A DNA stretch of 64,000 nt, from NCBI RefSeq assembly GCF_008065375.1, contig NZ_VJYI01000008.1, forward strand, positions 62,001 to 126,000. The letters are read 5' to 3'. This document shows positions 7,281 through 28,562 of the stretch, in pieces. Within the stretch, counting starts at the first letter, position 1. Every line of letters begins with the position of its first letter. The DNA comes from Nonomuraea sp. SYSU D8015. Lineage in GTDB: Bacteria; Actinomycetota; Actinomycetes; Streptosporangiales; Streptosporangiaceae. The position numbers were made by a program, and so were the translations under genes. The notes under the pieces were generated by a model that did not search any database, was not told where the DNA came from, and was given only the letters and a program-made list of their open reading frames with translations.

Positions 7281-8096
7281 ATGGGTGATCACGTTATTGT
7301 CGTAGATGAGGATCGGGAGACTGGTCAACGCCTTAAATACTACTCAAAAAACGCTGACGTCGATTATTGGACCACTCTATGGGCGTCCAAGAAATGGACG
7401 TACGATCGGCAGTTGAAGGGTTATCTGCCCCGCTACCTTCGCGACACGTTCCTGAAATGGGTGAGGCCCGGTGCTCGTGTGCTCGAAGCGGGTTGCGGTA
7501 TAGCTCATTTCACGGTGGCGGCCCACGCGCTTGGATACCGCGCCGAGGGACTGGACTGGTCCGAGCAGACGATCCACAGACTCAAGGCCAGGTTTCCCGG
7601 CATTTCGTGGCATGTTGGAGACGTTCGGAAGCTCGAATTCGACGACGGCGTTTTCGACGCCGTCTACTCCCCCGGCGTGTGTGAGCACTTCGAGGAAGGC
7701 CCCACTCAGATCCTGGCCGAGACGCGGCGGATTCTTTCTCCGAGCGGAATCGCCGTCATCGTGACACCGTGTTACAACCGGTGGCTGCAGGCGCGCGCAC
7801 ACCGGCTCTTCGCCGGCTCGGTGCCTGTGGGTCATTTCTATCAGTATGCGTTCAGCTCCGATGGGATAACCGGCCTCCTGCGTCGTATCGGCTTCGAGGT
7901 GCTGCAGGTACGGCATTTCGGCACCTTGGAAACACTGATGGAGTTTGGGAACTGGCGGCTTCCTCGCCGGCTGCAAAGGCCGCTTCACGTCATGGACTAC
8001 CTGCCTGTATTCCAGCAGTGGGGAAGGTGCTGCGTCTGGGTGGCGCGCCGGCCCGCCCTCGCCACGCCGACCAGGACGGCGCGTACAGCACCGTGA
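7281..8096 (+). CDS. Class I SAM-dependent methyltransferase, copy A of a tandem pair
   Basis: A 271-residue methyltransferase with motif I VLEAGCGIAHFT near residue 73 and the acidic GDVRKLEFDDGVFDAV segment. It lacks membrane spans and would methylate a sugar or sugar-lipid in the cytoplasm. The next gene is a clear paralogue of almost equal length (270 residues), sharing the opening DHVIV-DE-RETG-RLKYYS, the block SPGVCEHFEEGP and the ending WGRCCVWVARRPA. AAGGA lies before the ATG. It leads the plus-strand operon. Confidence 0.87.
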   Translation: MGDHVIVVDEDRETGQRLKYYSKNADVDYWTTLWASKKWTYDRQLKGYLPRYLRDTFLKWVRPGARVLEAGCGIAHFTVAAHALGYRAEGLDWSEQTIHRLKARFPGISWHVGDVRKLEFDDGVFDAVYSPGVCEHFEEGPTQILAETRRILSPSGIAVIVTPCYNRWLQARAHRLFAGSVPVGHFYQYAFSSDGITGLLRRIGFEVLQVRHFGTLETLMEFGNWRLPRRLQRPLHVMDYLPVFQQWGRCCVWVARRPALATPTRTARTAP

Positions 8097-8362: not shown

Positions 8363-9175
8363 ATGAGGGATCACGTGATCGTCCTGGATGAGAACAGAGA
8401 GACCGGGCGACGCCTCAAATACTATTCGCAGGTCGCGGACGCGGCCTACTGGACCGATCTGTGGAAATCCAAGGAGTGGTCGTACGACCGCCAACTGGCA
8501 GGCCACCTGCCGCACCAGCTCCGCAGCACGTTCAGCAGATTCGTCGAGCCGGGCGCCCGAGTGCTCGAAGCGGGTTGTGGCATGGGGCACTTCACGGTCG
8601 CCGCGCGTGTGCTCGGATACCGCGCAGAAGGTCTGGACTGGTCCTCGGAAACGATCGAAGAACTGCGGAGACGTTTTCCGGAGATTCCCTGGCACGTGGG
8701 GGACGTCCGCAAGCTGGAATGCGATGACGGCAGCTTTGACGCAGTATATTCTCCCGGCGTGTGCGAGCACTTCGAGGAAGGGCCCGTACAGATACTCAGG
8801 GAGACGCAAAGAATCCTGCGGCCCGGTGGCATCGCCATCATCACGACTCCGTGTTTCAACCGCTGGCTGCAGGCACGAGCGGATCGGTTCACCCCCACCG
8901 CGGAGCGCACCGGGGAGTTCTACCAGTTCGCCTTCAGCCCCGAGGGTATGAGGCGGCTATTGGAGGATCTCCAGTTCGAGGTGCCGTTTGTACGGACGTA
9001 CGACACGGTGGACACGTTTATCCAATTTGCCGGCTGGCGACTTCCCCCGTGGGCGATCAAGCCGCTTGCGATCATGGACTATCTGCCCGTCCTGCGTCAT
9101 TGGGGAAGGTGCTGCGTCTGGGTGGCGCGCCGCCCCGCTGGATTGACGATCCCATCCGGAGGCGGCTCCCCATGA
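8363..9175 (+). CDS. Class I SAM-dependent methyltransferase, copy B of a tandem pair
   Basis: A 270-residue methyltransferase with motif I VLEAGCGMGHFT and GDVRKLECDDGSFDAV, colinear along its whole length with the preceding gene, so the two arose by tandem duplication. The middle region after the WLQAR block is the most different part and may set acceptor choice (inference). The start has AGGAGG five bases before the ATG. Its TGA overlaps the ATG of the next glycosyltransferase by four bases. Confidence 0.87.
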   Translation: MRDHVIVLDENRETGRRLKYYSQVADAAYWTDLWKSKEWSYDRQLAGHLPHQLRSTFSRFVEPGARVLEAGCGMGHFTVAARVLGYRAEGLDWSSETIEELRRRFPEIPWHVGDVRKLECDDGSFDAVYSPGVCEHFEEGPVQILRETQRILRPGGIAIITTPCFNRWLQARADRFTPTAERTGEFYQFAFSPEGMRRLLEDLQFEVPFVRTYDTVDTFIQFAGWRLPPWAIKPLAIMDYLPVLRHWGRCCVWVARRPAGLTIPSGGGSP

Positions 9176-14763: not shown

Positions 14764-16098
14764 ATGACTGATCTTCTGCACCATGTTCGCACCTGGATTC
14801 GCCTGCCCAGCCGACGCCACATGACAGTCTTCTTTTCGCTGGGTGCTGCGGGGCAAGTCGAGGCAGGCCTGGCCGTTCTCACCACCATCGCACTCGTGCG
14901 CATGGTGGGTGCGGAGGAGGCGGGAGAAGTCTTCTTTGCGCAATCCCTGGGGAACCTGTGGTTTCTGCTATGGGATCCGCGCCTGGGTGACACGGCGCAA
15001 CGCTTCGTCCCACTACAGAGTAGGACCGAGGGCGGGCCTGGCAGCTGGTTGTTCTTCTGGCTGCTCCGCCTAGACGCCGGAATCGGGATCACCACGGCCG
15101 TCACGGGCACCGGTCTCGTATTGCTCGCGCATCACGTCGATTGGGTCGACGACAAGAAGGCCTTGCTGCTCGTTCTGGTGCTGATGGGTTGCGGCGTGAC
15201 GGTATCGAGGGGAACAGCCGTGGCCGGATTCGCCCTGTCGGAACGTCTGAGGCTCCTCGGGGCAGTGCGCATGGTCGCCGCGGGCCTCTCCTTTGTGGCG
15301 ACGATGACGGCGTTGTTCATGGGAGGGTTGATCGCCTACTTGGTGGTGGCAGCGGTCGCCGGCCTGGCAACCACGATCATGCTTGTGGCCATGGCCGCTC
15401 GCAGTATCGTCTTGGCGTTCGGCCGTCCGAGCACCGAGTGCAGCCGCCCCCCGCAAGGGCTCATCCGTTTCGCGTGCACGACGTCGGCGGCCACTTCCGT
15501 TGCTCTGGCGTCGGACAGCGGGGTGCTGGCTCTCGCCGGCCTTCTGGGGGCTCCGACCCTGGTGACGTTTCTCAAGATCGCCGGCACTCCCGCCCGGATG
15601 GTGCGCAGCTGCTTCAGCACGGTGGCGGCGCAACTGTATCCACGGCTGGCCAACGCCGTCGTGAGCAACGACAGCGCCGGCGCCCAGCGGGACCTCCTAC
15701 GAGCGACCGCGCTGCTGTCGGTCATTGGACTCGGCATGGTAGCCATGGTGCTGCCAGTCGCCGACGTCTTGCTGACGCTCGTCTACGGGCCTGCCTATGT
15801 CACTCTCGCCCCGACGCTGGTAATCCTGCTGGCGGCCGCCTGTGTGCGCGAGACAGTGGTGTGGTCGAAGGTCTTTCCGCTGGCGGTGGGCGTGCCCGGG
15901 GTTCGATTCGCCGTAGTCGTCGCCGAGGGCATATTGATCGCGGCCATGCTGGTCGTGGCGACCCGGCTGGGCGCACACGCGGAGGAGTGCGCGCTCATAT
16001 TCGCGTGGGGAAGTCTTGCCGTCGCCATCGCTTACGGGACGACGTGGCTGAGCCTGATGCGACCGCTCTTCCAACGCTTTGCGAGCACCGCCGCCTGA
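14764..16098 (+). CDS. Wzx-type lipid-linked oligosaccharide flippase
   Basis: A 444-residue multi-pass membrane protein of the polysaccharide flippase (MOP/PST) superfamily, with about twelve predicted spans. It would move the finished undecaprenyl-linked repeat to the outer face for polymerisation by the Wzy-like protein at 23942-25402. The start MTDLLHHVRTWIRLPSR is shared with a shrunken second copy at 25399-25995. It lies 42 bases after the epimerase gene. Confidence 0.84.
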   Translation: MTDLLHHVRTWIRLPSRRHMTVFFSLGAAGQVEAGLAVLTTIALVRMVGAEEAGEVFFAQSLGNLWFLLWDPRLGDTAQRFVPLQSRTEGGPGSWLFFWLLRLDAGIGITTAVTGTGLVLLAHHVDWVDDKKALLLVLVLMGCGVTVSRGTAVAGFALSERLRLLGAVRMVAAGLSFVATMTALFMGGLIAYLVVAAVAGLATTIMLVAMAARSIVLAFGRPSTECSRPPQGLIRFACTTSAATSVALASDSGVLALAGLLGAPTLVTFLKIAGTPARMVRSCFSTVAAQLYPRLANAVVSNDSAGAQRDLLRATALLSVIGLGMVAMVLPVADVLLTLVYGPAYVTLAPTLVILLAAACVRETVVWSKVFPLAVGVPGVRFAVVVAEGILIAAMLVVATRLGAHAEECALIFAWGSLAVAIAYGTTWLSLMRPLFQRFASTAA

Positions 16099-16204: not shown

Positions 16205-17080
16205 ATGACCAAGGAACCTTACACCCTTGTTTATCTGCTGGGCAGCGGCCGCAACGGATCCACCATCATAGATCTCATGCTGGCCGGCCATCCGAGCATA
16301 CTTGCACTGGGCGAACTGTCCACTCTGAACCGAATCTACAACCCCTTCGACCCGCCCGAAGACGACTATGCGACGCTCCGGTCGTGGAAGTCGTACCGCA
16401 GGTTCTGGAGCCAGGTGAAGGAAGCGTACGAGAAGGACACGTACCAGCCGTTCGAGAAGATCGACATCATAGAGCCACGCCTGCTGAAGGCCGCGCGCAT
16501 GAGCCAGGCGCAGGCGGAGCCATGGATCCAGAGAAACCTGGCGATTCTCAGAGCGTCACACGCCGTATCCGGCTGCCCCGTTCTGTCGGACGCGAGCAAG
16601 TCCCCGCAACGTCTCCTGCTCCTCAAGCGCTCACGCGCGGTTCGCATCAAGGTGATCCACCTGGTCCGCGATGGCCGGGCAGTCTCCTACTCCTACTTCC
16701 GCCGGTACGGAAGCCTCTATGAGGGGATGCGGACCTGGAGTCGCGCGGAACTCGCTTCCCTGTATCTCCGCCGGATCTTCTCACCGGACGAGTGGATGGA
16801 GGTCCGGTACGAACAGTTCGCCTCACAACCGGATCAGGCCCTTCGCGATATCTGCACCTTCCTCGATCTTGACTATCACGAAGCGATGCTGGACTTCCGC
16901 GCGCATCCTTATCTGGGAATCGGCGGAAATCCGAAGGTCAAAGCGTCCCGAGCCGCAGAAGTCCGCGAAGACGACCGCTGGCGACAAGAGTTGAGCGCGG
17001 CAAAGCGATTCATCGTGGGCTTGTGCATCGGCTGGCTGAATCGCATGAGAGGATATTCTGCTTTTGCGACGCGCCGATGA
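16205..17080 (+). CDS. PAPS-dependent sulfotransferase
   Basis: A 291-residue sulfotransferase. The 5'-phosphosulfate loop appears as LLGSGRNGSTIIDLML at the start and the 3'-phosphate site as KVIHLVRDGRAVSYSY near residue 152. The family transfers sulfate from PAPS to hydroxyl groups of carbohydrates or lipids. An ATG at 16193 is in frame, but GAGGAG sits five bases before the ATG at 16205, which I choose. It follows the flippase gene by 106 bases and ends the plus-strand operon, pointing to a sulfated polymer. No PAPS synthesis genes are in view. Confidence 0.83.
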   Translation: MTKEPYTLVYLLGSGRNGSTIIDLMLAGHPSILALGELSTLNRIYNPFDPPEDDYATLRSWKSYRRFWSQVKEAYEKDTYQPFEKIDIIEPRLLKAARMSQAQAEPWIQRNLAILRASHAVSGCPVLSDASKSPQRLLLLKRSRAVRIKVIHLVRDGRAVSYSYFRRYGSLYEGMRTWSRAELASLYLRRIFSPDEWMEVRYEQFASQPDQALRDICTFLDLDYHEAMLDFRAHPYLGIGGNPKVKASRAAEVREDDRWRQELSAAKRFIVGLCIGWLNRMRGYSAFATRR

Positions 17081-17150
17081 CACGGGCCTGCCAGTGACCG
17101 AGCCCCCGTCCGCCTGCGCCAACGGCGCGATACGAACCCGAGCAAGCCTT

Positions 17151-18032
17151 TCACCGCGCTCCATTCAGCCGAGCTTCCACTTCGGCTCGCCGCTCCCGTG
17201 AGACGACGAGGACATTCGGTGTCTCAATATTTGACCTCGGTGACGTGACAAGACCGTTGTGGCCGGGCTCGTAGTACATGAAGTCATAGCCGTAGTCGGC
17301 GAGCCACTCTCGAACCTCCGTCACGGTCGAACCGAATCGAAGGAGGAAGCGATCGACGAGTTCCAGCATCCAGACGGCGGGCTCGCCGCGAGCGAGAAGC
17401 TTCTCTGCACCGGCCAGAGCCTGGTGCTCCGCCCCTTCGATGTCGAGCTTGCCCATCGCCCATTCACGGTCCGGCAACGCATCGTCCAGGCGGACCACGT
17501 CCACGTCGACAGTGCTGACGTCGGACGCGCGGTCTTCCCGGGTCTGAATACGGGAGCCGACTCCGCGGAGCACGAAGGGCATCTGGCCTGGCTTCGCGCC
17601 GATGGCGGCGGAGTGGACCGTGACCATCGTGAGGTGGTTGACCCGGATGTTCCCACGCAATCTGGCAAGGTAGAGAGGGACCGCCTCGAAGGCATGCACC
17701 TCTCCAGATGAGCCGACCAGCTTGGCCGCGAGAAGCGTGTAGACGCCTTCGTTCGCGCCGCCGTCGATGAAGCCGTCGCCGGGCCGAAGATAGCGGTGCA
17801 TGAACGTCATCTCGACGTAGTCCGGCAGTCGGCCGAAGTAGAAGAACCGGCTGGCCTGGCCGTCGGGGTATGCCCTGAGTTTCATGTCGTCGTACACGGT
17901 CAAGTCAAATGGACGGCGTATCAATCTCTTCCATACCTGCCAGACAGCGGTACGGACGAGAGCCGCTCCACGATCGCCACGGTTTGCGGAGTGGTCCAGA
18001 ATAACCCTCAGCATTCCTTGTCGACCAGCCAT
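17151..18032 (-). CDS. FkbM-family SAM-dependent methyltransferase
   Basis: A 293-residue protein with the FkbM domain in its central part: FIDGGANEGVYTLLAA (motif I), HAFEAVPLYLARL, and GKLDIEGAEHQAL. FkbM enzymes O-methylate sugars and polyketides and are frequent in polysaccharide loci. The ATG at 18032 has AGAGAGGA upstream. It is the last gene of the second minus-strand block and converges on the sulfotransferase gene with a 70-base gap. Confidence 0.85.
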   Translation of the reverse strand: MAGRQGMLRVILDHSANRGDRGAALVRTAVWQVWKRLIRRPFDLTVYDDMKLRAYPDGQASRFFYFGRLPDYVEMTFMHRYLRPGDGFIDGGANEGVYTLLAAKLVGSSGEVHAFEAVPLYLARLRGNIRVNHLTMVTVHSAAIGAKPGQMPFVLRGVGSRIQTREDRASDVSTVDVDVVRLDDALPDREWAMGKLDIEGAEHQALAGAEKLLARGEPAVWMLELVDRFLLRFGSTVTEVREWLADYGYDFMYYEPGHNGLVTSPRSNIETPNVLVVSRERRAEVEARLNGAR

Positions 18033-18381
18033 ATCATGGTCCTCTCTGAACAGGTGGAGGCGCGTTCATGGCCGCGACTCTCGCCTTGCCAGGGTGCGGC
18101 ATGAATCCGGAAGCGTGCCGAAGGCCACACCTTGGCTGATTCATTCTTTGGGGAACGCACGCATCTTTCCTGCGGAATCGAGCTCCACGACGCCCTTTCA
18201 TTGACCCTTGAGGCCACGTCCCCGAAGCGTCGCGAAGGATCAACCAAGACTTGGCCAGGTAGCCGGGTGCGCCGGCCGCCACGAACCCGGGAACGCCCCG
18301 GCGTCAACATGCCCGCGACCGGGGGCTGCGCCCTGCGGAAACAGTGCCTACAGCGGCTCATGGCACAACTCTGAATCCGGG
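18033..18381. other. Intergenic stretch, no gene recognised
   Basis: Between the FkbM gene and the broken ugd, 349 bases hold only short frames without recognisable products. It may carry the FkbM promoter, since ugd is no longer functional. Confidence 0.4.
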
Positions 18382-19313
18382 TCATGTCCGGTAGCTCCAC
18401 CCCGCCGAGCGCCAGAGGTCCGGCGCCAGGGCGTGGCGGGCGTCCACCACATTTCGCTGTCGAACCGATTGAGTCAGCACGTGGGGATCCATATCCCGGA
18501 ATTCGGTCCAGTCGGTCAGCAGCATCAGCAGATCGGCGTCACGTGCCGCGGCAAGGAGAGTGTCCGCGTATTCAAGCTCCGGGTGGGCCCGCCGGGCCTT
18601 GCCCTCGGCGACGTTGTCGTGGACGACAACGTCTGCTCCTTCCTCCCGGACGGCTACCGCTACGGTGAGAGAGACATGACGCAACCTATGCTCCGCCCAT
18701 GGCGATGCGACACCGAAAACGAGGCGATCCGGTCTGAGCATGTCCTCGAGCGCTCGGCCCTCTCGCAGGAATTCCGGATTCCACGCTACTTCCAGCCTGA
18801 CCCCTCCCTTCGCATGTCCGCGAACGATCTGAGCCATTCGCCGTGCCGTGCCGACCGGAACGGTTGACTTGCCCACGACGAGGGAGGGGGCGCGCAGATA
18901 AGGAGCCAGCTCCGCGAACGCCCTTTCCACCCAGCTGAGATCAGCCCGGTGGGATCCGGTGAGCTGCGGTGTCCCCACACAGACGAAGTGCACGTCCGCC
19001 TCGGCCCCGACCTCTCTGTAGGAGGTGGCGAAACGCGCCGTCCGGCCTCCACGAGCTTGCGGAGCATCTCGCTCAGGCCGGGCTCGTAGAAGGGAACGAT
19101 TCCGGCGGAGAGCAGAGAGATCTTCTCTTCATCGATGTCCATGCCGACGACTTCATGACCCAGCCGAGCCATGCTGGCGGCGTGCGTCGCGCCCAGATAA
19201 CCGACACCTATCACGCTGCCCCTGAGGCGATCAGCTGTCGCATGGACTGGCTCGCCACATGTGTCGCTGAGTCGCGGGCATTTGTGCTCATTCTCGTAAA
19301 CCCTCTGAATCAT
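18382..19313 (-). pseudogene. Broken UDP-glucose 6-dehydrogenase gene (ugd remnant)
   Basis: Two frames together give the ends of a UDP-glucose dehydrogenase. The first frame (start near 19313) has the Rossmann motif VIGVGYLGATHAA through LRKLVEAGRR. The second gives RFATSYREVGAEADV, FVCVGTP, VGKSTVPVGTA and NPEFLREGRALED. Joining GRR to RF needs one added base near 19040. Beyond PDRLVFGVAS the protein jumps to the C-terminal HPELEYADTLLAAA and LTDWTEFRDMDP, so the central dimerisation domain with the catalytic cysteine motif GGxCLPKD is missing. The whole remnant is about 310 codons against roughly 430-450 for the family. One frameshift plus one large in-frame deletion make it non-functional; an intact dehydrogenase lies at 27303. 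Confidence 0.85.
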
Positions 19314-19354
19314 TCGCGGTCGTCACCCGGTCATGAGCTGCAGGCGACGATCGG

Positions 19355-20338
19355 CTATTTAGTGCCGCGAATCACGTACAATCCACGACGGCGCTCGATC
19401 GACACGTCTCGCAGGTGTAGTTCGGTCGTCCAGCGTTCAAGACGTCGACGCGTCTGTGGTGTTTCGTACCGGGGTGCGAACCAGTCGAATGTGTCCAGGA
19501 CCGACCAGTTGCGAAGCGTGTTCTTGTTCCTGAGGCCCAGATACCGATGGTTCGCGACCGGAACCAGGCGGGCCAGGTACGGTCCTGCCGCCGGAACCGC
19601 GCTGAGCATCATCGAAAGCGGGAGCAGGCGTGGCACGACCTTCTCCACCACGGTATAGAGCCTAGCCGGCGGGATTCGTCTGGTGAGCGGACGCAGTAGG
19701 TGCCGAGGGTGCGTATACGCGACTATCGCCGCGTAGACGTCGATGCAGAAGCGACCTCCCGGCCGCAAGTACTGGAATATCGTCTTGAACGCCTTTTCCA
19801 CGTCTGGCGTGTGCTGGAGCACACCGAAGCAGACCAGGAAGTCGAAGGATTCCTTCTTGAACGGGAGTTCATAGATGCTGGCCTGGACCAGTCTCAGGTT
19901 GGGGAAGTGACCGTTCGAGGCCACGTTCGCGTGCACAGCGCTCGAGATGTCGAACGATGTGACGGAGGCACCGGTCTCGCAGAGCACCTCGGTGAAGCGT
20001 CCGGCGCCGCTGCCGCATTCCAGCACGTTCTTGCCGTGCAGCTCGGCGACGGACCAACCACTGGCGCTCATCAGCCGGTCGCGCGAGATTGGCATTCCCG
20101 AGTGCGAGTCGAGCTGGGTCAGCCGATGCTGGTTCCATTGGTAGCCGAAGCCCGCGGCATAGTTGTCCTTGGCTACGAACCTTGGCACTCCGTTGTCAAT
20201 CGGGTATGTCGCCCCACATCGCGTGCAGCAGAGCTTCCTTCCTGCCCTGAGTGAGCATCCGCAGTGAATACAGCACAGTGTATCGTGCCAGTCGGTCTGG
20301 AAATCCGTATTGCCCGGAACGGGTGATGAAGGAGTCAT
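19355..20338 (-). CDS. SAM methyltransferase with N-terminal zinc ribbon
   Basis: A 327-residue protein. Residues about 22-45 form a CxxC...CxxC zinc-ribbon (CCIHCG and CCTRCG, followed by YPIDNGVPRF), then a class I methyltransferase domain with VLECGSGAGRFTEVL and SFDFLVCFGVLQHTPD. This arrangement is common in sugar and lipid methyltransferases of polysaccharide loci. The C-terminal third is hydrophobic and basic and may touch the membrane. Its ATG overlaps the stop of the preceding gene (20335-20338). Confidence 0.85.
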   Translation of the reverse strand: MTPSSPVPGNTDFQTDWHDTLCCIHCGCSLRAGRKLCCTRCGATYPIDNGVPRFVAKDNYAAGFGYQWNQHRLTQLDSHSGMPISRDRLMSASGWSVAELHGKNVLECGSGAGRFTEVLCETGASVTSFDISSAVHANVASNGHFPNLRLVQASIYELPFKKESFDFLVCFGVLQHTPDVEKAFKTIFQYLRPGGRFCIDVYAAIVAYTHPRHLLRPLTRRIPPARLYTVVEKVVPRLLPLSMMLSAVPAAGPYLARLVPVANHRYLGLRNKNTLRNWSVLDTFDWFAPRYETPQTRRRLERWTTELHLRDVSIERRRGLYVIRGTK

Positions 20339-21132
20339 CGAGAATGCCTGCCCTGCTCAAGGTCCGCTAGCCCAGGTCCCGTCATGCCGATGTACTTGCC
20401 GCGGTACTCGAAGACGTGAAAGAGCTGCCTTGCAGCCACATATTCCTGGAATACCAGGTTGTCCTGGATGTCGTCCATTACCAAGACATGGCCATCCGTC
20501 AGGTGCGGGGAAATCCGCCGGAGAAAGAACTCTCTTCCCGCTCTCGTCTTGTCAGAGTCGTAGTGGGCCAGGTCCACCTTCATCCGAGCGCGGAGTATAC
20601 GGCGGAGATTTCGTCGGTCACCGTCCAGGTGGAGCGTCCATGAGTCCTTCAGCGGCTCCGCGACGACATGGCCGATGTACTGCTCTGGGTCGCCGAGCCG
20701 GAAGCACGGGAAATCACTCGAGTACAGGTGGCCGAATTTGTTCGCCTGTATTGCCGCGAGAATGGCGGCGGTGGTCCAGCCCGCGGCGACACCGGTCTCC
20801 ACCACTACTTTCGGGCACAGCATCCTGGTCAGGAAGTACAGCAGTTCGATGCCACCCGGCCCACCGAGGTCCACGCCGAGCTCCGCCAGGGCCCTCACCC
20901 GTGGCTCCGCCGACTCGGTGAGGAGGCGGGCATAATTCTCCGCCTCCCTCCAGAGGAGGGGATCGATGCGACTACCCCATTCGTCGAGGCTTTCCGCCTG
21001 GCTGGAGGCCCATGCGGTGGCGGCCTTGCGTTCCCGGTCATGTCCATGTCTTATTCGCACGTAGACCTTGTGTGTCATGACCGGCAGATATGTCGGGCGC
21101 ATCGCATTACGAGCGATGGCGAAAATGCTCAT
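20335..21132 (-). CDS. Class I SAM methyltransferase (CmcI/Methyltransf_24-like)
   Basis: A 265-residue protein. Motif I is VVETGVAAGWTTAAIL, followed by LYSSDFPCF, KVDLAHYDSDKT and VMDDIQDN. This layout is that of small cytoplasmic methyltransferases distantly related to the 260-residue pair at 23260 and 26082, though not a recent copy. The ribosome site before the ATG is weak. It is coupled to the zinc-ribbon methyltransferase by a four-base overlap and follows asnB by 92 bases. Confidence 0.78.
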   Translation of the reverse strand: MSIFAIARNAMRPTYLPVMTHKVYVRIRHGHDRERKAATAWASSQAESLDEWGSRIDPLLWREAENYARLLTESAEPRVRALAELGVDLGGPGGIELLYFLTRMLCPKVVVETGVAAGWTTAAILAAIQANKFGHLYSSDFPCFRLGDPEQYIGHVVAEPLKDSWTLHLDGDRRNLRRILRARMKVDLAHYDSDKTRAGREFFLRRISPHLTDGHVLVMDDIQDNLVFQEYVAARQLFHVFEYRGKYIGMTGPGLADLEQGRHSR

Positions 21133-21224
21133 AATTCGGATTCTAAGGGGCCGATCCCCTTGTATCCCAACTCGCCGGGCATGTCCATCAGAATATTCGT
21201 GGACATGGAATCACCATGAAACGG

Positions 21225-23165
21225 TCAATTCCCTGGACGCGCATGCGGGGACGAGCCCTGCGCAGCCTGGCACCCGCGCGGTCGAATGCCGGTACAACGG
21301 TCATCGATGAACATGCGATGCCACAGTTCGAATTGCATGAGGGTCCAGATGCGACTGCCATGATCATGGCCTTTGCCGTGCTGGCGGAGTAGTTTGGTCA
21401 CCGCGTCGTTCCGAAACAGGTCACGAGAGCGTGCGGTTCTATCCGTCAGCACGTCCCATGACAGATCTCGCAGGTCGGTCCGCAGCCACGCGGCCAGCGG
21501 GATGCCGAACCCCATCTTCGGACGCTTGATAAGATCCGCCGGCAGCCATCCCGCGAGTGCCTTTTTCAGCAAATATTTCGTGGTGCCGGATCGTACCTTG
21601 AAATGAGACGGAAGGGACGCGGCCCATTCCATGAGATGGTGGTCGAGAAACGGAGATCGCGCCTCCAGTGAGTTGCTCATCGTGGCGATGTCCATTTTCA
21701 CGAGAAGATCGCCGGGAAGGTAGGTGTTCACGTCGACGTCCAGGAGGCGGCCGACGCACGTGTCCGCGCGGGAAGCGGCGAAGGCGTCGTTCAGGAGCCG
21801 AAAACTGTCTGTTCCCGCAAGCTGCTCTCGCAAGGTGTCGGAGTAGACAGTCATCTTCTGCTCCGGGGTGAAGCAGGACATCAGCCGTGCGTAGCGAAGC
21901 TGTTCGGGAAGGCCAAGAAGCTCGACGACACGACCGACATCGCTCAAACGGGAGCGGGCACGAGAATGCGCGGCCAGGAGCGCTCCCGCCTTCTCCAGCA
22001 CACCTCTGACGGGCCGAGGCGCTCTGATCCGCTGGATCTTCGCCATCGCCGCGTACCGGCGATAACCTCCGAAGCTCTCGTCGGCCCCGTCTCCATTGAG
22101 CACGACGGCGACATGATCGCGGCTCATCCGCGCGACGTAGAAACTCGGGATGGCGGACGAGTCGGCGAACGGCTCGTCGAAATGCCACGTCAGCTCCGGC
22201 AGCACGTCCAAAGCCGAGGGGGTGACAACTTGTTCGTGATGATCGGTGCCATACCGCTCCGCAACCAAACGTGCATAGCGTCGTTCATCGAAGTCCTGTT
22301 CGGCGAAGCCGATGTTGAACGTCTTGATGCGCCCTTCACTCACGCGGGCCATCGCCGCCACGACGGCCGATGAGTCGACACCGCCGGAGAGGAAGGCTCC
22401 CAGCGGACGTTCGCTTACCAGGCGAGCCCGCGTGGCGTCTAGCAGGAGATCGCGGAGGCGAGCAGCAGCTTCGGCTTCGGAGTGGATCTCACCTGGCGTG
22501 CAGTCGAGCCGCCAGTAGGGGAACACGTCGACGTCGCCTTGCTCCCAGACGAGCAGGTGTCCTGGAGGTACTTTGCGGATTCCCTGGTAGATCGACCAGG
22601 GCGCGGGGACGTATTGGAAGGTCAAATAGTGGTGCAGCGCGACGAGGTCCACTTCGCGAGGCGCCGCGGGATCCTGCACCAAGGCCTTCAACTCAGAGGC
22701 GAAGATCAGTGATCTTCCATGGGACCGCCAGTAGAGCGGCTTCTTTCCCACCCGGTCGCGGCCAAGCAGCAACCGTCGTCGTGGGGCGTCCCAGATGGCG
22801 AAGGCGAACATGCCGCGCAGGCGGTGGACGAGTTCGTCACCAAAAACCTCATAGGCGTGTACGAGGCACTCGGCGTCCCCGTCGCTCCTGAAGCGATGCC
22901 CCCTCTTGCGTAGTTCCTCCCGAAGGAGGGGGAAGTTGTACAGCTCGCCGTTGAACACCGCCGCGATGGAGCCGTCTTCGCTGTAGACGGGTTGGGCTCC
23001 GCCCACCACGTCGATGATGGCCAGTCTGCGCATCCCGAGGGCGGCATGCGCGTCCTCGTGGTAGCCGACGTCGTCCGGACCGCGGTGGATCAGCGCGTCA
23101 CACATCCGGCGGACAAGGTCGGCATCCGGCCGCTCCGTCGAAACCACACCGGCTATCCCGCACAC
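21225..23165 (-). CDS. Asparagine synthase-type glutamine amidotransferase (AsnB family)
   Basis: A 646-residue two-domain enzyme. The GTG start is followed directly by TGC, giving the catalytic Cys2 of the class II glutaminase domain (MCGIAGVV), with RHRGPD-type IHRGPDD and FNGELYN. The synthetase half has the PP-loop SGGVDSSAVV near residue 259. Family members make asparagine or amidate other carboxylates; in polysaccharide loci AsnB-like proteins are linked to amidation of uronic acids (WbpS in Pseudomonas aeruginosa O6 is the named example). Here it stands among methyltransferases and near a nucleotide-sugar dehydrogenase, favouring that role (inference). Confidence 0.88.
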   Translation of the reverse strand: MCGIAGVVSTERPDADLVRRMCDALIHRGPDDVGYHEDAHAALGMRRLAIIDVVGGAQPVYSEDGSIAAVFNGELYNFPLLREELRKRGHRFRSDGDAECLVHAYEVFGDELVHRLRGMFAFAIWDAPRRRLLLGRDRVGKKPLYWRSHGRSLIFASELKALVQDPAAPREVDLVALHHYLTFQYVPAPWSIYQGIRKVPPGHLLVWEQGDVDVFPYWRLDCTPGEIHSEAEAAARLRDLLLDATRARLVSERPLGAFLSGGVDSSAVVAAMARVSEGRIKTFNIGFAEQDFDERRYARLVAERYGTDHHEQVVTPSALDVLPELTWHFDEPFADSSAIPSFYVARMSRDHVAVVLNGDGADESFGGYRRYAAMAKIQRIRAPRPVRGVLEKAGALLAAHSRARSRLSDVGRVVELLGLPEQLRYARLMSCFTPEQKMTVYSDTLREQLAGTDSFRLLNDAFAASRADTCVGRLLDVDVNTYLPGDLLVKMDIATMSNSLEARSPFLDHHLMEWAASLPSHFKVRSGTTKYLLKKALAGWLPADLIKRPKMGFGIPLAAWLRTDLRDLSWDVLTDRTARSRDLFRNDAVTKLLRQHGKGHDHGSRIWTLMQFELWHRMFIDDRCTGIRPRGCQAAQGSSPHARPGN

Positions 23166-23259
23166 CGTCGTTCTGGCACCTTCCCGAGAACACGCAGACG
23201 TCGATTCGCCATGACTACGAGGCGGTCGTACGCCGGTCCACCGTTCAACTCGACGGACA

Positions 23260-24042
23260 TCAGGTCCTCAACGCCCCTGTGATCTTTCTGCTGTCGAAGA
23301 GGAACTCCGGATGCAGTCCTCGCCGCTTGCAGAAGTCGATGAACGCCTTGCTGACATCGACGTCGTCACTCGCGAACAACCCATTGGGCTTCATGAGAGG
23401 CCAGACGTAGTCGTACTCAAGGAGTTGATTGAGGTACCTGTGATCGCTGTCATGGAAGAACAGGTCCACCGTTCCGATCCGCCGTAGAGACTGGACGAAG
23501 CAGGACTCCGGTGCGCTGCGGCCGCAGATCGTGAGCTGCCACTGATCATGCTCACCTACCAGGACGCCCGCCCTGGGGTTGACATCGAAGCTGTGGAGGC
23601 GCCCGGAGCCGTTTCGTTCGAGCGCGGCCAGGAATATGAACGAGGATCGACCATCCGCCACCCCGGTCTCCACAATCGTGACCGGCTGGACCAGCCGGGT
23701 GGCAGCATAAAGGAAGAATCCCGTCTCCGTCTCCACCCCGAATCTCTCCGGGAATGAAAGGCTCGCCGTCCGGTACTGGCCGGCAAGACGCTGGGAGACT
23801 TCGTCGTACTCGTCAGCGAGTTTCTCCGTCTCAGCTGAGCCCCACCCCAGTCTTTCGAGGAGGGCCCGGCCCGACGTGGCAAGCGACGTGCAGATGCCGG
23901 TGAAGTCGCGAATGGTCGGCGGGCTGTTTCGGTGGATCCAGTCAGGTGCGATTCTTGCCGTAATCCAGCTGCCCGCTATCGCTGCCACCGGCTTGATTCC
24001 ACAGTTCTTCGCCCACCGCCGAGCCGTCGCCACCCGTCTCAC
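23260..24042 (-). CDS. Class I SAM methyltransferase, copy 1 of a 260-residue pair
   Basis: A 260-residue methyltransferase with motif I IVETGVADGRSSFIFLAAL, then HSFDVNPRAG, DLFFHDSDHRYLNQLLEYDY and FASDDVDVSKAF. It aligns end to end without large gaps with the protein encoded at 26082-26864, ending in the same FLFDSRKITGALR. The GTG at 24042 has GAGAGGAGG six bases upstream; the second copy confirms this N-terminus (RRVATARRWAKN against GRIATAQRWAKH). The start lies 101 bases inside the end of the Wzy-like frame. Confidence 0.85.
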   Translation of the reverse strand: MRRVATARRWAKNCGIKPVAAIAGSWITARIAPDWIHRNSPPTIRDFTGICTSLATSGRALLERLGWGSAETEKLADEYDEVSQRLAGQYRTASLSFPERFGVETETGFFLYAATRLVQPVTIVETGVADGRSSFIFLAALERNGSGRLHSFDVNPRAGVLVGEHDQWQLTICGRSAPESCFVQSLRRIGTVDLFFHDSDHRYLNQLLEYDYVWPLMKPNGLFASDDVDVSKAFIDFCKRRGLHPEFLFDSRKITGALRT

Positions 24043-25402
24043 GACGGCCTCCTCTCATGGCCAATCGAATACCGGTGAGTGTAGTGTTCCCCGTCTCATG
24101 GAGCTCTGCCGGACCACCCGGACAACCAAACAGAGGACGGCGCTTTGCTCTATTTTGGCCGATGCGGCGGCAGGGAACTTCGAAGGATGCAAAGGGTTGT
24201 GCGGCCTTCAACGGTCTCCATGTGAACGTCATGGTGAAGAAGAGCAGCGCCAGCAGGGACTGGCCGTAGAGATGCATCTCAGAAAGCGACATGGCCAGGG
24301 TCGCCACCAGGAAAAGGTAGGCTTTCTGGTCGCTGAGGGCCTCACGAGCCAGCGTGGAGACGAAAGTCAGAAAGAGTATGAGTCCTACGATGCCCGAGCT
24401 GACTCCGAGATGGATCCATAGATTGTAAATCGCCACGTCGCTCGGTCCGATGATCCCGAGTTCGCGAACCGCCGAAGCGAGCTGCCAGCCGTGACCGACG
24501 ATCGGATTCTCCTGAAACTGCCGCCACCCGGCAGAAATGCTTTTGACGCGAACGGTCACGGAGTACTCGTACAATCCGAGCATACTGTTGACGTAGGGGA
24601 CAAGCGGTAGCGCGGCCAGACCGGCGGCGGGGGGCAACAGCAGTGGGACGTACCATCGGCGCGGCAGCGCGGCGGCGAAGGCGACGGCGCCTACCGCGAA
24701 CCAAACGGAGCGCGTGAGCGTCATTGCGATTCCGAAGGCAATCAGTCCCACCAGGAGGACCTTGAGTGGCCGGTGAAGACGGGATGTCCAGACGACGAGG
24801 AGGGCTGCGATGAAGAGCCCGCCCGCATGGGATGGATCGTCGATGAATCGGCCGTGCAACCGACTGGGCAGATACGGCATATGGAGAATGATCTCCATCA
24901 CGGCCAGTCCGACGATTCCTGCGAACAGGTATCGCTTGGCTGGCGGCCGGTAACTGACCGCTACGCCCATGGCTGCGTAGAGGGCCACCCGTCCTAGAGC
25001 CGTCAAGACCCCTAGTCCAGTGATCGTGACAAAAGCTGTCCACAGGAAAAAGGCCAACAGTGCGATGCGTGAGGCACTGAAACGTATCTTGAGCCCCTGC
25101 GGACTCAACACCACCCGCGTCACACAGACAAGGGCGGCCACATCGCTCAGGAAGAGAGGACCGATGAAGGCCCCGTCATCTCGTACCGTGATGAGGACGA
25201 TGGCGGGGAGGAGATCGGTCGGGACTATGAGGAGTGCCAGGCACATCAGTGCCACCGACAGCGGGGCGTCGTTGGATGCGCCCCCGAGTTGGGCGAGTAC
25301 CACGAGGGTCAGGCTGGTCATCAACCGCATCGGCAGCATCGGGTCAATGCGCCGTCGGCCCACGCTCACCTTCCAACGGGCTCCTGGAGATACAGCCCTC
25401 AT
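23942..25402 (-). CDS. Wzy-like O-antigen/polysaccharide polymerase
   Basis: A 486-residue integral membrane protein with about ten hydrophobic spans and a large external loop in the second half, containing NPIVGHGWQLASAVREL. That loop resembles the O-antigen ligase/polymerase (Wzy_C) region. It would join flipped repeats at the outer membrane face. The ATG at 25402 overlaps the end of the decayed wzx by four bases; a GTG at 25363 with GGAAGG upstream is an alternative start. The last 33 or so residues (from MRGGRRETGG) are hydrophilic, read the start of the next gene in another frame, and are unlikely to be original. Confidence 0.78.
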   Translation of the reverse strand: MRAVSPGARWKVSVGRRRIDPMLPMRLMTSLTLVVLAQLGGASNDAPLSVALMCLALLIVPTDLLPAIVLITVRDDGAFIGPLFLSDVAALVCVTRVVLSPQGLKIRFSASRIALLAFFLWTAFVTITGLGVLTALGRVALYAAMGVAVSYRPPAKRYLFAGIVGLAVMEIILHMPYLPSRLHGRFIDDPSHAGGLFIAALLVVWTSRLHRPLKVLLVGLIAFGIAMTLTRSVWFAVGAVAFAAALPRRWYVPLLLPPAAGLAALPLVPYVNSMLGLYEYSVTVRVKSISAGWRQFQENPIVGHGWQLASAVRELGIIGPSDVAIYNLWIHLGVSSGIVGLILFLTFVSTLAREALSDQKAYLFLVATLAMSLSEMHLYGQSLLALLFFTMTFTWRPLKAAQPFASFEVPCRRIGQNRAKRRPLFGCPGGPAELHETGNTTLTGIRLAMRGGRRETGGDGSAVGEELWNQAGGSDSGQLDYGKNRT

Positions 25403-25995
25403 GATGACGCAGCCAGAGGAAAGACTTCAGACCACACGACTGTCCCTGAACGCAAGAGGTCCCACCATGAGCGCATGACGGGCGCCAACGTGACATGAGT
25501 TGATCCGTACATAAACTCCGGCATCGTGCCGGCAAGCGGTCGCAGCACAGCCACCGAAGCCGATCCCACGCTCCATAGCCGTGCCGACGCTCGGAGGACA
25601 TCCCCTCGTTCCCCGGCGCCGTCATGGCGGAAGACAGCCGCGGTCAGCCGAGAGTGGAGTTGTGCCACCACCGTGCTAGCACAACCGATCGGAGGGCGGC
25701 TTCGCCCTGTTGGCCGGCTTCCCAGCGCCACGACAACAGTGCGCCCGATCTTGACCACGAGCACGCTGGTGGCCAGGAGGCCGACGGTCATCGCGACGCA
25801 CAGATACGCGATCCCGGCGTCCAGCCGGAGGGAGACGAAGCACTGCCTGGTGTCCCCCAAGCGCGAGTCTCGAACGAAAAGCCACATACACAGTCCTGCC
25901 TCCGTCTGAGTTGCCATGCCGAGCGACGCGAAGATCGTCAGGCATCGGCTCGGCGGGCGGGTGCAGGCGTTGACACGCTGCAGCAGGTCAGTCAT
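25399..25995 (-). pseudogene. Shrunken second copy of the wzx flippase gene
   Basis: The 198-codon frame is a condensed version of the 444-residue flippase at 14764-16098. The same blocks occur in order: MTDLLQRV..TRPPSR / MTDLLHHV..IRLPSR; RDSRLGDTRQCFVSL / WDPRLGDTAQRFVPL; RLDAGI; GRSRPPIG / ECSRPPQG; STVVAQLHSRLTAAV / STVAAQLYPRLANAV; and HVTLAP with TVVWSEVFPLA. Several in-frame deletions remove about 250 residues and most membrane spans, so it cannot work as a flippase. The frame is open and its stop overlaps the wzy start by four bases, so it may still be translated as a short leader-like protein. Confidence 0.8.
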
Positions 25996-26081
25996 GCCGG
26001 AATTCCAATCGCTTCATAGTGCCGAGGCGTTGGGCGGCCAATGTCAGCGGCGGAGTGCTTGGCTCATTCACTCCACATGGA

Positions 26082-26864
26082 TCAAATCCTCAGCGCTCCG
26101 GTGATCTTCCGGCTGTCGAACAGGAATTCAGGGCGTTGGGCATGTCGCCTGCAGAAGTCGAGGAACGCCTTGCTGACGTCGACGTCATCGCTCGCGAACA
26201 GGCCGCCAGCGCGCATCCTGGGCCAGACGAAGTCATATTCCAAAAGCTGTCCGAGATAGCGATGGTCACTGTCGTGAAAGAAAAAGTCCACTTTGCCTAG
26301 TTTCAGTAGCGACTGGATGAACGAGAGTTCCGGCGCCGTCGGGTCACTGATCTTGAGGTGCCATTGATCATGCGCTCTCACGAGCCCGCCGGCTTTGGAA
26401 TTGATGTCAAAGCTGTGGAGGAGACCCCCGCCGTTGCGTTCGAGCGCGGCGAGGAATATGAACGAGGATCGACCGTCCGCAACGCCGGTCTCCACCACTT
26501 TTTGCGGTTTCGTCAGCCGGGTGGCCGCATACAGGAAGAATCCCGTTTCCCGCTCCACGCCGAACCTCAGCGGAAGTGCGAGGGTGGTGCTCTTGTACTG
26601 TCGGGTGAGGCGTTCCTGAATCTCCTTGTACTCGTCGACGAGGATGGCGATGTCAGCGGCCGACCAGCCCAGTCTTTCTAGAAAGACCTGGCTCGATGTT
26701 GCGAATGGAGAGCTCATACCGAGGAAGTCCCGGACAGTCGGCGCACTGTTCCGATGTATCCAGCCTGGCGCGATCTTTGCGGTGATCCAGCTACCTGCGA
26801 CCTCGGCGACGGGCCTGATACCACTGTGTTTGGCCCACCTCTGGGCCGTTGCTATTCGCCCCAT
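26082..26864 (-). CDS. Class I SAM methyltransferase, copy 2 of a 260-residue pair
   Basis: A 260-residue methyltransferase, the same length as copy 1. Motif I is VVETGVADGRSSFIFLAAL, with HSFDINSKAG, DFFFHDSDHRYLGQLLEYDF and FASDDVDVSKAFLDF. The frame extends to 26897, but GAGGAG lies seven bases before the ATG at 26864, and copy 1 begins at the equivalent residue. It heads the second minus-strand block, so the operon promoter should lie within 26865-27302. The two copies differ most in the first 80 residues after the shared start, which may set substrate choice (inference). Confidence 0.86.
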   Translation of the reverse strand: MGRIATAQRWAKHSGIRPVAEVAGSWITAKIAPGWIHRNSAPTVRDFLGMSSPFATSSQVFLERLGWSAADIAILVDEYKEIQERLTRQYKSTTLALPLRFGVERETGFFLYAATRLTKPQKVVETGVADGRSSFIFLAALERNGGGLLHSFDINSKAGGLVRAHDQWHLKISDPTAPELSFIQSLLKLGKVDFFFHDSDHRYLGQLLEYDFVWPRMRAGGLFASDDVDVSKAFLDFCRRHAQRPEFLFDSRKITGALRI

Positions 26865-27302
26865 ACCGGTCTCCTCTGTCGCGCCGAACCCGAACACTGC
26901 AAGACGGTATCGGTGAAAGCCAGCAGGCCTTGACCAAAACAGGGTAACTGTCGCAAATTTGCATTAAATTTGCTGTTCCTCGAAAACGGGCGATTTGTTG
27001 CGAGCCTCGACACTGTTGCTGAATTTTGCCGACACGCCAGTGGTAGCCGGGATCCGGTGAAGGTAGCGGTGGCGCCACACCGTGGCTCGAGAACGAGGGC
27101 CTGCCATCACATCCCAAGTCGCCGACTTCAGCTGTCGCCCCGGGCTACGCCAAATCGTGGAAGGGATGGATTCGGCGCGGCTGAGCCCATCGTGGGGATG
27201 GTTGGGACACGACACGCCAGAGGTAGCGCTGAAATGGGCGATATGAGGACACGGGGCACCTACAGTCAGTCTTAACTCATATCGAGGTGACGGGGGCCGG
27301 TT
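26865..27302. promoter_or_regulatory. Divergent promoter region
   Basis: These 438 bases separate the methyltransferase block (minus) from the nucleotide-sugar dehydrogenase (plus). Part of it (about 26935-26985) is markedly AT-rich for this genome (for example GCAAATTTGCATTAAATTTG), as expected for promoters. No protein-coding frame is convincing. GAGGTGA precedes the ATG at 27303 by 11 bases. Confidence 0.5.
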
Positions 27303-28562
27303 ATGAGAGAGAAACTGGTGGTCATCGGCCAGGGGTACGTCGGTCTGCCGCTGGCGATGCGTGGGGTCGAGGCGGGGTTCGAAGTTGTGGGGATCGACGT
27401 GGACGAGTGGCGGATCAAGCGGTTGGGCGAAGGCGAGTCCTACGTCGAGGACATCCACAACGACGAGGTGAAGGCCGCGCTGCGCGGCGGCCGCTACATG
27501 GCCAGCACCGACTACGCCAAGGCCAAGGACTTCGACATCTGCCTGATCACCGTACCGACTCCTCTGCGCGAGGGGGCTCCGGATCTACGTCATATCGCCT
27601 CGGCCGGCCATTCCATCGCGCCTCTGATCCGGCGAGGTGCCACGGTGGTTCTCGAGTCCACTACCTATCCCGGCACCACGGAGGAGTATCTTCTCCCGAT
27701 ACTGGAGAAGGGCTCCGGGCTGCGCGCGCCCGATGACTTCTTCCTCGGCTACAGCCCTGAACGCATCGACCCGGGCAACTCCCGATGGCACCTGCAGAAC
27801 ACGCCGAAGGTCGTGTCGGGAATCGACGAGTATTCACTGAAGAAGATCGAGGTCTTCTACCGGCAGATCGTCCGGGAAGTCGTTGCCGTCTCTTCTCCCC
27901 AGGTGGCCGAGCTGTGCAAGCTCCTGGAGAACACCTTCAGGCACGTCAACATCGCCCTGGTCAACGAACTGTCCATCTTCGCGCAGCAGCTCGGGATCGA
28001 CGTTTGGGAGGCAATCGACGCCGCCTCCACCAAACCGTTCGGCTTCATGCGCTTCACCCCGGGCCCCGGCGTCGGCGGGCACTGCCTGCCGATCGACCCG
28101 TCGTACTTGTCATGGGCGGTCAAGCGAGGTCTGGGACACAACTTCCGGTTCGTCGAGCTGGCCAACGACATCAATAGGAGCATGCCGAGCCACGTCGTAC
28201 ATCGGCTCGGCCTAGCGCTGAACAAGCGCGCCAAGCCGATCAAGGGCAGTCGGCTGGTCCTGCTCGGACTCGCGTACAAGAAGAACGCAGGAGACTGCCG
28301 TGAGTCCCCCGCGATCGAGGTGGCCAGGTCTCTTTGCAAGCTCGGCGCCCGAGTACGAGCGGCTGACCCCCACGTCGACCGTTCCCTGCTACCGCTGAAC
28401 ATCGAGATCATCGAAGCCACGGGCTGGGAGCTCGCGCAAGCTGACGTCGTGGTGATCCTCACCGACCACGACTGCTTCGACTATGAAATGATCGAGCAGG
28501 TGAGCCCGTTCGTCTTCGACACGCGCAACCGCTGCCGGGGCCCCAACGTCGAACGGCTGTGA
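27303..28562 (+). CDS. Nucleotide-sugar 6-dehydrogenase (WbpA/WecC-like)
   Basis: A 419-residue UDP-sugar dehydrogenase with all three domains. It begins VVIGQGYVGLPLAMRG, then has VPTPLREGAPDL, ESTTYPGTTEEYL and the FFLGYSPERIDPGN signature typical of the WbpA/WecC branch that oxidises UDP-HexNAc rather than UDP-glucose. The catalytic cysteine is in GVGGHCLPIDP near residue 265, and the C-terminal domain has LGLAYKKNAGDCRESPA. It converts a UDP-(HexNAc) C6 hydroxyl to a carboxylate using two NAD+. As the broken ugd is inactive, this is the only intact uronic-acid-forming enzyme in the locus. Confidence 0.9.
   Translation: MREKLVVIGQGYVGLPLAMRGVEAGFEVVGIDVDEWRIKRLGEGESYVEDIHNDEVKAALRGGRYMASTDYAKAKDFDICLITVPTPLREGAPDLRHIASAGHSIAPLIRRGATVVLESTTYPGTTEEYLLPILEKGSGLRAPDDFFLGYSPERIDPGNSRWHLQNTPKVVSGIDEYSLKKIEVFYRQIVREVVAVSSPQVAELCKLLENTFRHVNIALVNELSIFAQQLGIDVWEAIDAASTKPFGFMRFTPGPGVGGHCLPIDPSYLSWAVKRGLGHNFRFVELANDINRSMPSHVVHRLGLALNKRAKPIKGSRLVLLGLAYKKNAGDCRESPAIEVARSLCKLGARVRAADPHVDRSLLPLNIEIIEATGWELAQADVVVILTDHDCFDYEMIEQVSPFVFDTRNRCRGPNVERL

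Follow-up and report, generated by a model that had tools for sequence, protein, structure and literature searches.

A probable wzx pseudogene with an open reading frame upstream of wzy in a Nonomuraea polysaccharide cluster, and its possible role in translation of its neighbor

Why would a gene fragment that has lost much of a flippase remain open, in a single frame, directly against a polymerase gene? The question is raised by a 198-codon frame in the 64,000-nucleotide stretch of DNA analyzed here (the window), which belongs to a 12.4 Mb genome of the genus Nonomuraea, family Streptosporangiaceae. The window contains a polysaccharide cluster with a Wzz/kinase-type gene, glycosyltransferases, epimerases, the flippase gene wzxA, a Wzy-like polymerase gene and the 198-codon frame, hereafter the relic. 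The main features are:

14764 to 16098, plus strand: wzxA, an intact flippase gene of 444 codons and the second wzx copy; WzxE is the best PDB match of its structure model
23260 to 24042, minus strand: methyltransferase copy 1 (Methyltransf_24), downstream of wzy; 68% identical to copy 2
23942 to 25402, minus strand: wzy-like polymerase gene; Pfam Wzy_C, E 2.7e-6, below the gathering score
25361 to 25374, minus strand: GGAAGG-TGAGC-GTG, a Shine-Dalgarno-like site, by duplex energy, with the alternative wzy start GTG25363
25399 to 25402, minus strand: ATGA, where the relic stop overlaps the first possible ATG of the wzy frame, which lacks a Shine-Dalgarno site (-1.5 kcal/mol)
25399 to 25995, minus strand: the relic, almost certainly a wzx pseudogene, a 198-codon open frame from ATG to TGA; identified by homology, in-frame gaps and grouping with wzxA (support 100)
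26082 to 26897, minus strand: methyltransferase copy 2 (Methyltransf_24), upstream of the relic; domain match

wzxA lies 9 kb from the relic on the opposite strand, behind a run of four glycosyltransferase genes (with an epimerase gene between) and ahead of a sulfotransferase gene. The same four-glycosyltransferase run precedes wzx in genome G151. The two methyltransferase copies flank the relic-wzy pair and share 68% protein and 71% DNA identity. As listed, the open reading frames of wzy and methyltransferase copy 1 overlap by about 100 nt (23942-24042); probably the 3' end of wzy or the start of the methyltransferase differs in life from the listed end. The methyltransferase start GTG24042 has a strong Shine-Dalgarno-like site (-15.7). 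A second duplicated pair (7281-8096 and 8363-9175, plus strand; 66% protein identity) lies upstream of the glycosyltransferases, and its first member is a Methyltransf_23-type methyltransferase. Elsewhere in the window, a tandem repeat at 55273-55456 consists of two copies of about 94 bases, 93% identical and 90 bases apart.

The relation of the relic to wzxA was examined at the DNA and protein levels. Alignment of the minus strand of 25200-26100 with the 444-codon wzxA gene gave a score of 220; 30 mononucleotide shuffles reached 119 at most. A profile built from wzxA and 16 relatives was run on the three minus-strand frames, so that its E values are those of a search of three sequences. It matched four relic stretches in order and in a single frame (E 2e-18), one of which, the WF/L..DPRL block, is weak alone (E 0.05). 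The other two minus-strand frames yielded just a one-residue match (E 0.25-0.45). The relic and wzxA are 53% identical in protein sequence and group together with support 100 in a tree of 188 aligned columns. These results show that the relic is a homologue of Wzx flippases descended from a wzx of this lineage. The 198-codon frame represents a decayed second copy of the flippase gene found intact at 14764-16098 (plus strand), and the preliminary description, which had recognized a relic of a second wzx, was right on this point.

A frame-changing alignment with wzxA divides the relic into four blocks, all on the minus strand:

25888 to 25995, minus strand: block 1, wzxA residues 1-37 with one codon missing, followed by a 27-codon gap
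25813 to 25887, minus strand: block 2 (MWLFVRDSRLGDTRQCFVS and LRLDAG), with a 17-codon gap within, followed by an 83-codon gap
25684 to 25812, minus strand: block 3 (IAYL...SRPPIG), followed by a 50-codon gap
25411 to 25683, minus strand: block 4 (CASTVVAQL...VVWSEVFPLA), reaching wzxA residue 374

The gaps of 1, 27, 17, 83 and 50 codons are all in frame, and they stay so at each frameshift penalty tried (5 to 15) and with shifts barred; at the lowest penalty, 5, one further short compensated shift appears. Since eight intact sequences aligned beside it contain the segments that are absent from the relic, the gaps are deletions in the relic; its internal losses come to about 178 codons, and its 3' end is gone as well. 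Ordered wzx blocks separated by in-frame deletions had been described before, and the four stretches in one frame and five in-frame gaps bear this out. A frameshifted pseudogene with a fortuitous open reading frame was ruled out for the main blocks by the one-frame profile matches and the in-frame gaps.

The most serious alternative to a frame kept for wzy is a plain pseudogene. A redundant wzx copy would be decaying neutrally, still open because its decay is recent and its DNA rich in G+C, while wzy starts alone at GTG25363 or GTG25369. We consider this quite possible, though not quite an even bet. That 5/5 resolved gaps are in frame counts against it. For gaps of random length the chance of this is (1/3)^5 = 0.004, or 0.012 for the four large ones, figures that flatter frame conservation because the finding was picked for its open frame.

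Two features of the 3' part are pertinent here. About 11 codons before TVVWSEVF are better read out of frame at frameshift penalties of 10 or less, through three small shifts that sum to one whole codon (score 85.0 vs 77.6 in frame). When this stretch was shuffled, 85.0 was reached in 2/200 cases and 77.6 in 12/200, a comparison that speaks for homology here but does not bear on the gain from shifting. If shifts are barred, the alignment places an insertion of 3 codons and a gap of 4 codons in this stretch. From these alignments, the 11 or so codons within block 4 may have been frameshifted and then restored, and a compensated frameshift inside the relic would favor the plain pseudogene. Evidence of wzx homology beyond TGA25399 is suggestive at best. 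Codon-wise, P is 1.0 if shifts are barred, and allowing them gives 0.03 and 0.075; DNA-wise, it is 0.09-0.32 for the colinear stretch and 0.44-0.92 for the whole gene. In the competing reading of the 3' end, wzx homology continues past TGA25399 in other frames, and the DNA alignment backs neither reading firmly. An ancestral wzx stop at 25368-25366 (AGG TGA, as at the wzx end in G172) was considered, but the tail is too short.

The intact copy was characterized by structure prediction. The wzxA model has a mean pLDDT of 79 (55-61 for the other four models). Against the PDB its best E-value is to WzxE (9g9p, 4.5e-7, TM-score 0.63-0.67), among matches to MATE and MurJ proteins. Because the MATE entry 6fhz has a higher TM-score (0.75), the fold indicates MOP and not Wzx in particular, and wzxA is predicted to be a MOP-type transporter in a Wzx/Wzy setting. 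No flippase family was matched by wzxA and six relatives in Pfam or by wzxA in NCBIfam, and a PDB sequence search with wzx returned a single chance-level match and no flippase. The wzxA lineage looks like an unmodelled MOP family.

Conserved positions were compared to gauge the decay of the relic. It keeps 37 of the 108 positions that are invariant in wzxA and six relatives; 12 are changed and 59 deleted. Among 37 columns invariant in 16 relatives, wzxA keeps 27 and the relic 21, with 7 lost in the relic alone and 1 in wzxA alone (sign test P 0.07). At 80% conservation the corresponding losses are 15 vs 4 (P 0.02). MOP folds have 12-14 transmembrane helices. By one crude rule the relic retains 1-2 hydrophobic segments vs 8-10 in wzxA. 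On these counts it does not appear to be a functional full-length Wzx flippase, and it is gapped or truncated against all intact homologues found, as expected of a pseudogene. We are highly confident that the 198-codon open reading frame is a pseudogene of a wzx flippase.

The protein branch of the relic is also longer, 0.68-0.78 vs 0.17 for wzxA or about four times that of its sister, and its G+C by codon position is flattened (0.64, 0.57, 0.72; wzxA 0.67, 0.51, 0.79). The comparison of dN/dS proposed in the preliminary description was carried out with a stationary codon model on 8/18 sequences with synonymous sites near saturation, and the numbers are rough. Its outcome depended on the treatment of branch lengths. 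Assuming equal times, dN/dS is higher for the relic (0.26 vs 0.07 for wzxA; 2dlnL 12.6 over a shared value). With free lengths, the excess of the relic goes into a longer branch, and the values (relic 0.20, wzxA 0.11, elsewhere 0.17) do not differ significantly (2dlnL 0.4), so that the case for relaxed constraint comes from the gaps and from assuming equal times. Both models, with the same rough numbers, rejected pure neutrality (omega = 1) over the whole relic branch: 2dlnL was 17.0 when lengths were free and 28.5 when times were equal. A model that switches from functional to neutral treats 16% of the branch as neutral, which amounts to about 0.53 substitutions per codon, as the plain pseudogene would have it. 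A single intermediate value gives a better fit than this switch (lnL -3857.2 vs -3861.4). A long functional phase with decay setting in only recently would fit the codon analysis, and such a history has fewer mutations to account for. The relic is decayed, but not long decayed.

The expectation that random decay should break the frame was weighed with neutral simulations. At 0.53 substitutions per codon, 15-24% of the simulated frames had no stop in 188 codons; at 1.1-1.5 substitutions per codon, 4.5-9% were stop-free. With 15-24% of neutral frames open at the inferred decay, the absence of stops means little and is no embarrassment to the plain pseudogene. That expectation is upheld by the improbability of the in-frame gaps (0.004-0.012) but not by the lack of stops.

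Under a second alternative, selection maintains the short form as a novel working membrane protein, either a miniature flippase or an accessory one. The whole-branch dN/dS, well below 1 under both treatments of branch lengths and no different from the rest of the tree with free lengths, is what such a protein would show. The same low value, however, would also come from a functional phase before decay, as in the less well fitting switch model. The deletion of 59/108 invariant positions with 12 others changed, and the 1-2 remaining hydrophobic segments, speak against a working protein, and the single-sequence structure model is useless (pLDDT 36).

If the short form were a protein in its own right, relatives might carry it. 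With wzxA as query (E up to 1e-10 and the best 5 candidates per genome in the family; 1e-5 in 54 genus genomes), 17/297 family genomes gave a match, own included, and in the 16 others the matches cover the greater part of the gene. The relic itself, used as query, matched 8/297 at E up to 0.001, own included; among the best 10 candidates, the 7 others all matched at known full-length wzx genes. In the 54 genus genomes the relic matched, besides its own genome, the intact wzx of G005 and 45 residues in G004 (E 0.006). No independent short form was found in relatives among the best candidates scored at these thresholds in the 297 family and 54 genus genomes. A conserved short protein, named at the outset as the finding that would overturn the proposal, was rejected because, at these thresholds, the relatives' matches in the 297 family genomes all lie in full-length wzx. 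We regard a miniature flippase as very improbable. A sequencing or assembly artefact is more improbable still: just one searched genome carries the relic, but gaps of 27, 17, 83 and 50 codons and 53% identity to wzxA are not sequencing errors, although a single-base error near TGA25399 is conceivable.

Because the proposal concerns a pair of genes, the neighbor was examined in the same genomes. The wzy product scores 27.7 bits with Pfam Wzy_C (gathering score 31.7) and is 40-46% identical to wzx-adjoining open reading frames in 4 genomes. At E up to 1e-20, a wzy of this kind occurs in 5/297 family genomes, counting its own. The other four, G005, G021, G151 and G172, each have a full-length wzx immediately upstream in the same orientation. 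By predicted starts, wzx and wzy overlap by 8, 8 and 8 nt in G005, G021 and G151 (nearest start codon); in G172 the overlap is 4 nt from a GTG start or 1 nt from an ATG start, and the longest wzy open reading frame of G172 begins at a TTG further upstream. The stop/start overlap is common to relatives (4/4 other wzy genomes among 297), and the gene order indicates that the coupled layout is ancestral. The suggestion that a relic had been turned into a coupling leader does not stand in that form, since the coupled layout was already there to be inherited. The overlapping pairs of the relatives also make the uncoupled wzy start of a plain pseudogene less natural.

The only wzy match of the genome itself (E up to 10) is the gene behind the relic, with no second copy. 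The simplest history is that there were two wzx copies and that the one beside wzy became redundant. Third-position divergence is 0.50 for the methyltransferase pair and 0.50 for the wzx pair, which suggests from sequence divergence that the two pairs are of common age.

The position of the wzy start determines whether the relic and wzy are in contact. The four-base overlap noted earlier with the longest open reading frame of wzy is present (ATGA, 25402-25399), and its ATG is one of several candidate starts. Stop and start touch only if ATG25402 is the start in use. We estimate the chance of such an overlap, with a TGA after A or G and the frames fitting, at about one in six. Duplex energies with the 16S end are -1.5 kcal/mol for ATG25402, -6.6 for GTG25369, which overlaps a TGA, -8.8 to -10.6 for GTG25363, with GGAAGG at 5 nt, and -2.1 to -3.1 for ATG25339. 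The relatives' wzy starts have values of -8.3 to -11.3. About 7.6% of 344 ATG/GTG sites on the minus strand of 17000-27000 reach -8, placing GTG25363 in the best 8%. With this good Shine-Dalgarno-like site, wzy could start by itself, which favors the plain pseudogene over coupling. The starts of cluster open reading frames at 21132 and 16193, however, also have no Shine-Dalgarno-like site (-1.5 and -3.0), so lacking one does not exclude ATG25402. In an alignment of wzy N-termini, ATG25402 falls near the relatives' first Met with six extra residues after it, which is non-decisive. The relic start ATG25995 has a Shine-Dalgarno-like duplex of -5.8.

Transcription signals were sought in 23000-27400. 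A sigma-70-type scan found no wzy promoter on its own strand, which is weak evidence against the separate promoter that had been named at the outset as the second finding to overturn the proposal. A promoter inside the relic was rejected because the sole promoter-like site is on the plus strand and at chance number. A terminator-like hairpin at 25532-25518 (minus strand) is one of 3 found, with 2.4 expected.

Together the observations could be accounted for as follows. A second intact wzx, wzxA, would have made the wzy-adjoining copy redundant, allowing its internal and 3' losses. Because the single-copy wzy was still needed, mutations that kept the frame would have persisted, with ribosomes still reaching the wzy start. 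The relic, judging from strand and spacing, would share an mRNA with the upstream methyltransferase. Ribosomes would begin at ATG25995, read through to TGA25399, terminate there and reinitiate at the overlapping ATG; the relic would yield no useful protein. Alternatively they might restart at GTG25363 after readjustment, or wzy might start alone there.

Reinitiation has been studied with two-reporter constructs in E. coli and Haloferax, and in the pairs reported it needs overlaps or very short distances (PMC10666635). Moving the upstream stop by about 20-38 nt strongly reduced or abolished reinitiation in both organisms, and the commonest overlaps given are -4, -1 and -8 (PMC10666635). GTG25363 lies 35 nt past TGA25399. 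If GTG25363 is used, the relic stop is at a distance at which reinitiation was mostly or fully lost in the tested E. coli and Haloferax pairs (PMC10666635).

A coupling leader is a plausible reading. Some dependence of wzy on the relic is favored, slightly, over independent starting, given the inherited overlap and the in-frame gaps. The frame is not strictly guarded if the 3' stretch was shifted and restored and the tail continues in other frames, which weighs against coupling, and the case for the frame comes from one genome, read from sequence. We give an even chance to the joint explanation, a frame-conserving pseudogene in an inherited wzx-wzy pair that has decayed while its frame was kept for wzy. 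That translation through the relic still feeds wzy, hence the survival of the frame, we put just short of even. The strictest version, in which a protein-dead gene is kept open solely to carry ribosomes on, with selection acting on the frame across a series of in-frame deletions and a restored frameshift, and not on the amino acids, is possible but rather doubtful.

At present the locus is a record of how one of two wzx genes decayed in a Nonomuraea polysaccharide cluster. Should its frame be kept for coupling alone, the locus would offer a natural experiment in the effect of translational coupling on gene decay: the upstream partner can give up function, whereas its frame has to remain. In that case it would also caution that an open frame, even one with low whole-branch dN/dS, is no proof that a short open reading frame makes a useful protein. 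Literature searched by titles and abstract openings, a scope that does not amount to absence from print, turned up nothing on the subject of a pseudogene kept open for coupling or of wzx-wzy coupling.

Each of the elements here is of a known kind: wzx-wzy pairs that overlap, pseudogenes of wzx, and pseudogenes that are expressed. The locus resembles Wzx flippases of the MOP type (WzxE 9g9p, 9g95, 9g9n) in the fold match of wzxA and the Wzx/Wzy-type cluster. It differs in that the relic is unlikely to form the fold and wzxA falls outside the Pfam and NCBIfam families. Like the coupled pairs reported in PMC10666635, the relatives' genes overlap (8, 8, 8, and 4 or 1 nt) and so do the relic and the longest open reading frame of wzy (4 nt); here, in contrast, the upstream partner is decayed and the downstream gene has a candidate start with a Shine-Dalgarno-like site of its own. 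As with the transcribed or translated pseudogenes mentioned in PMC3711429, an inactive copy may matter for the expression of a neighbor, but the constraint proposed for the relic is on its frame only and not on its RNA or protein.
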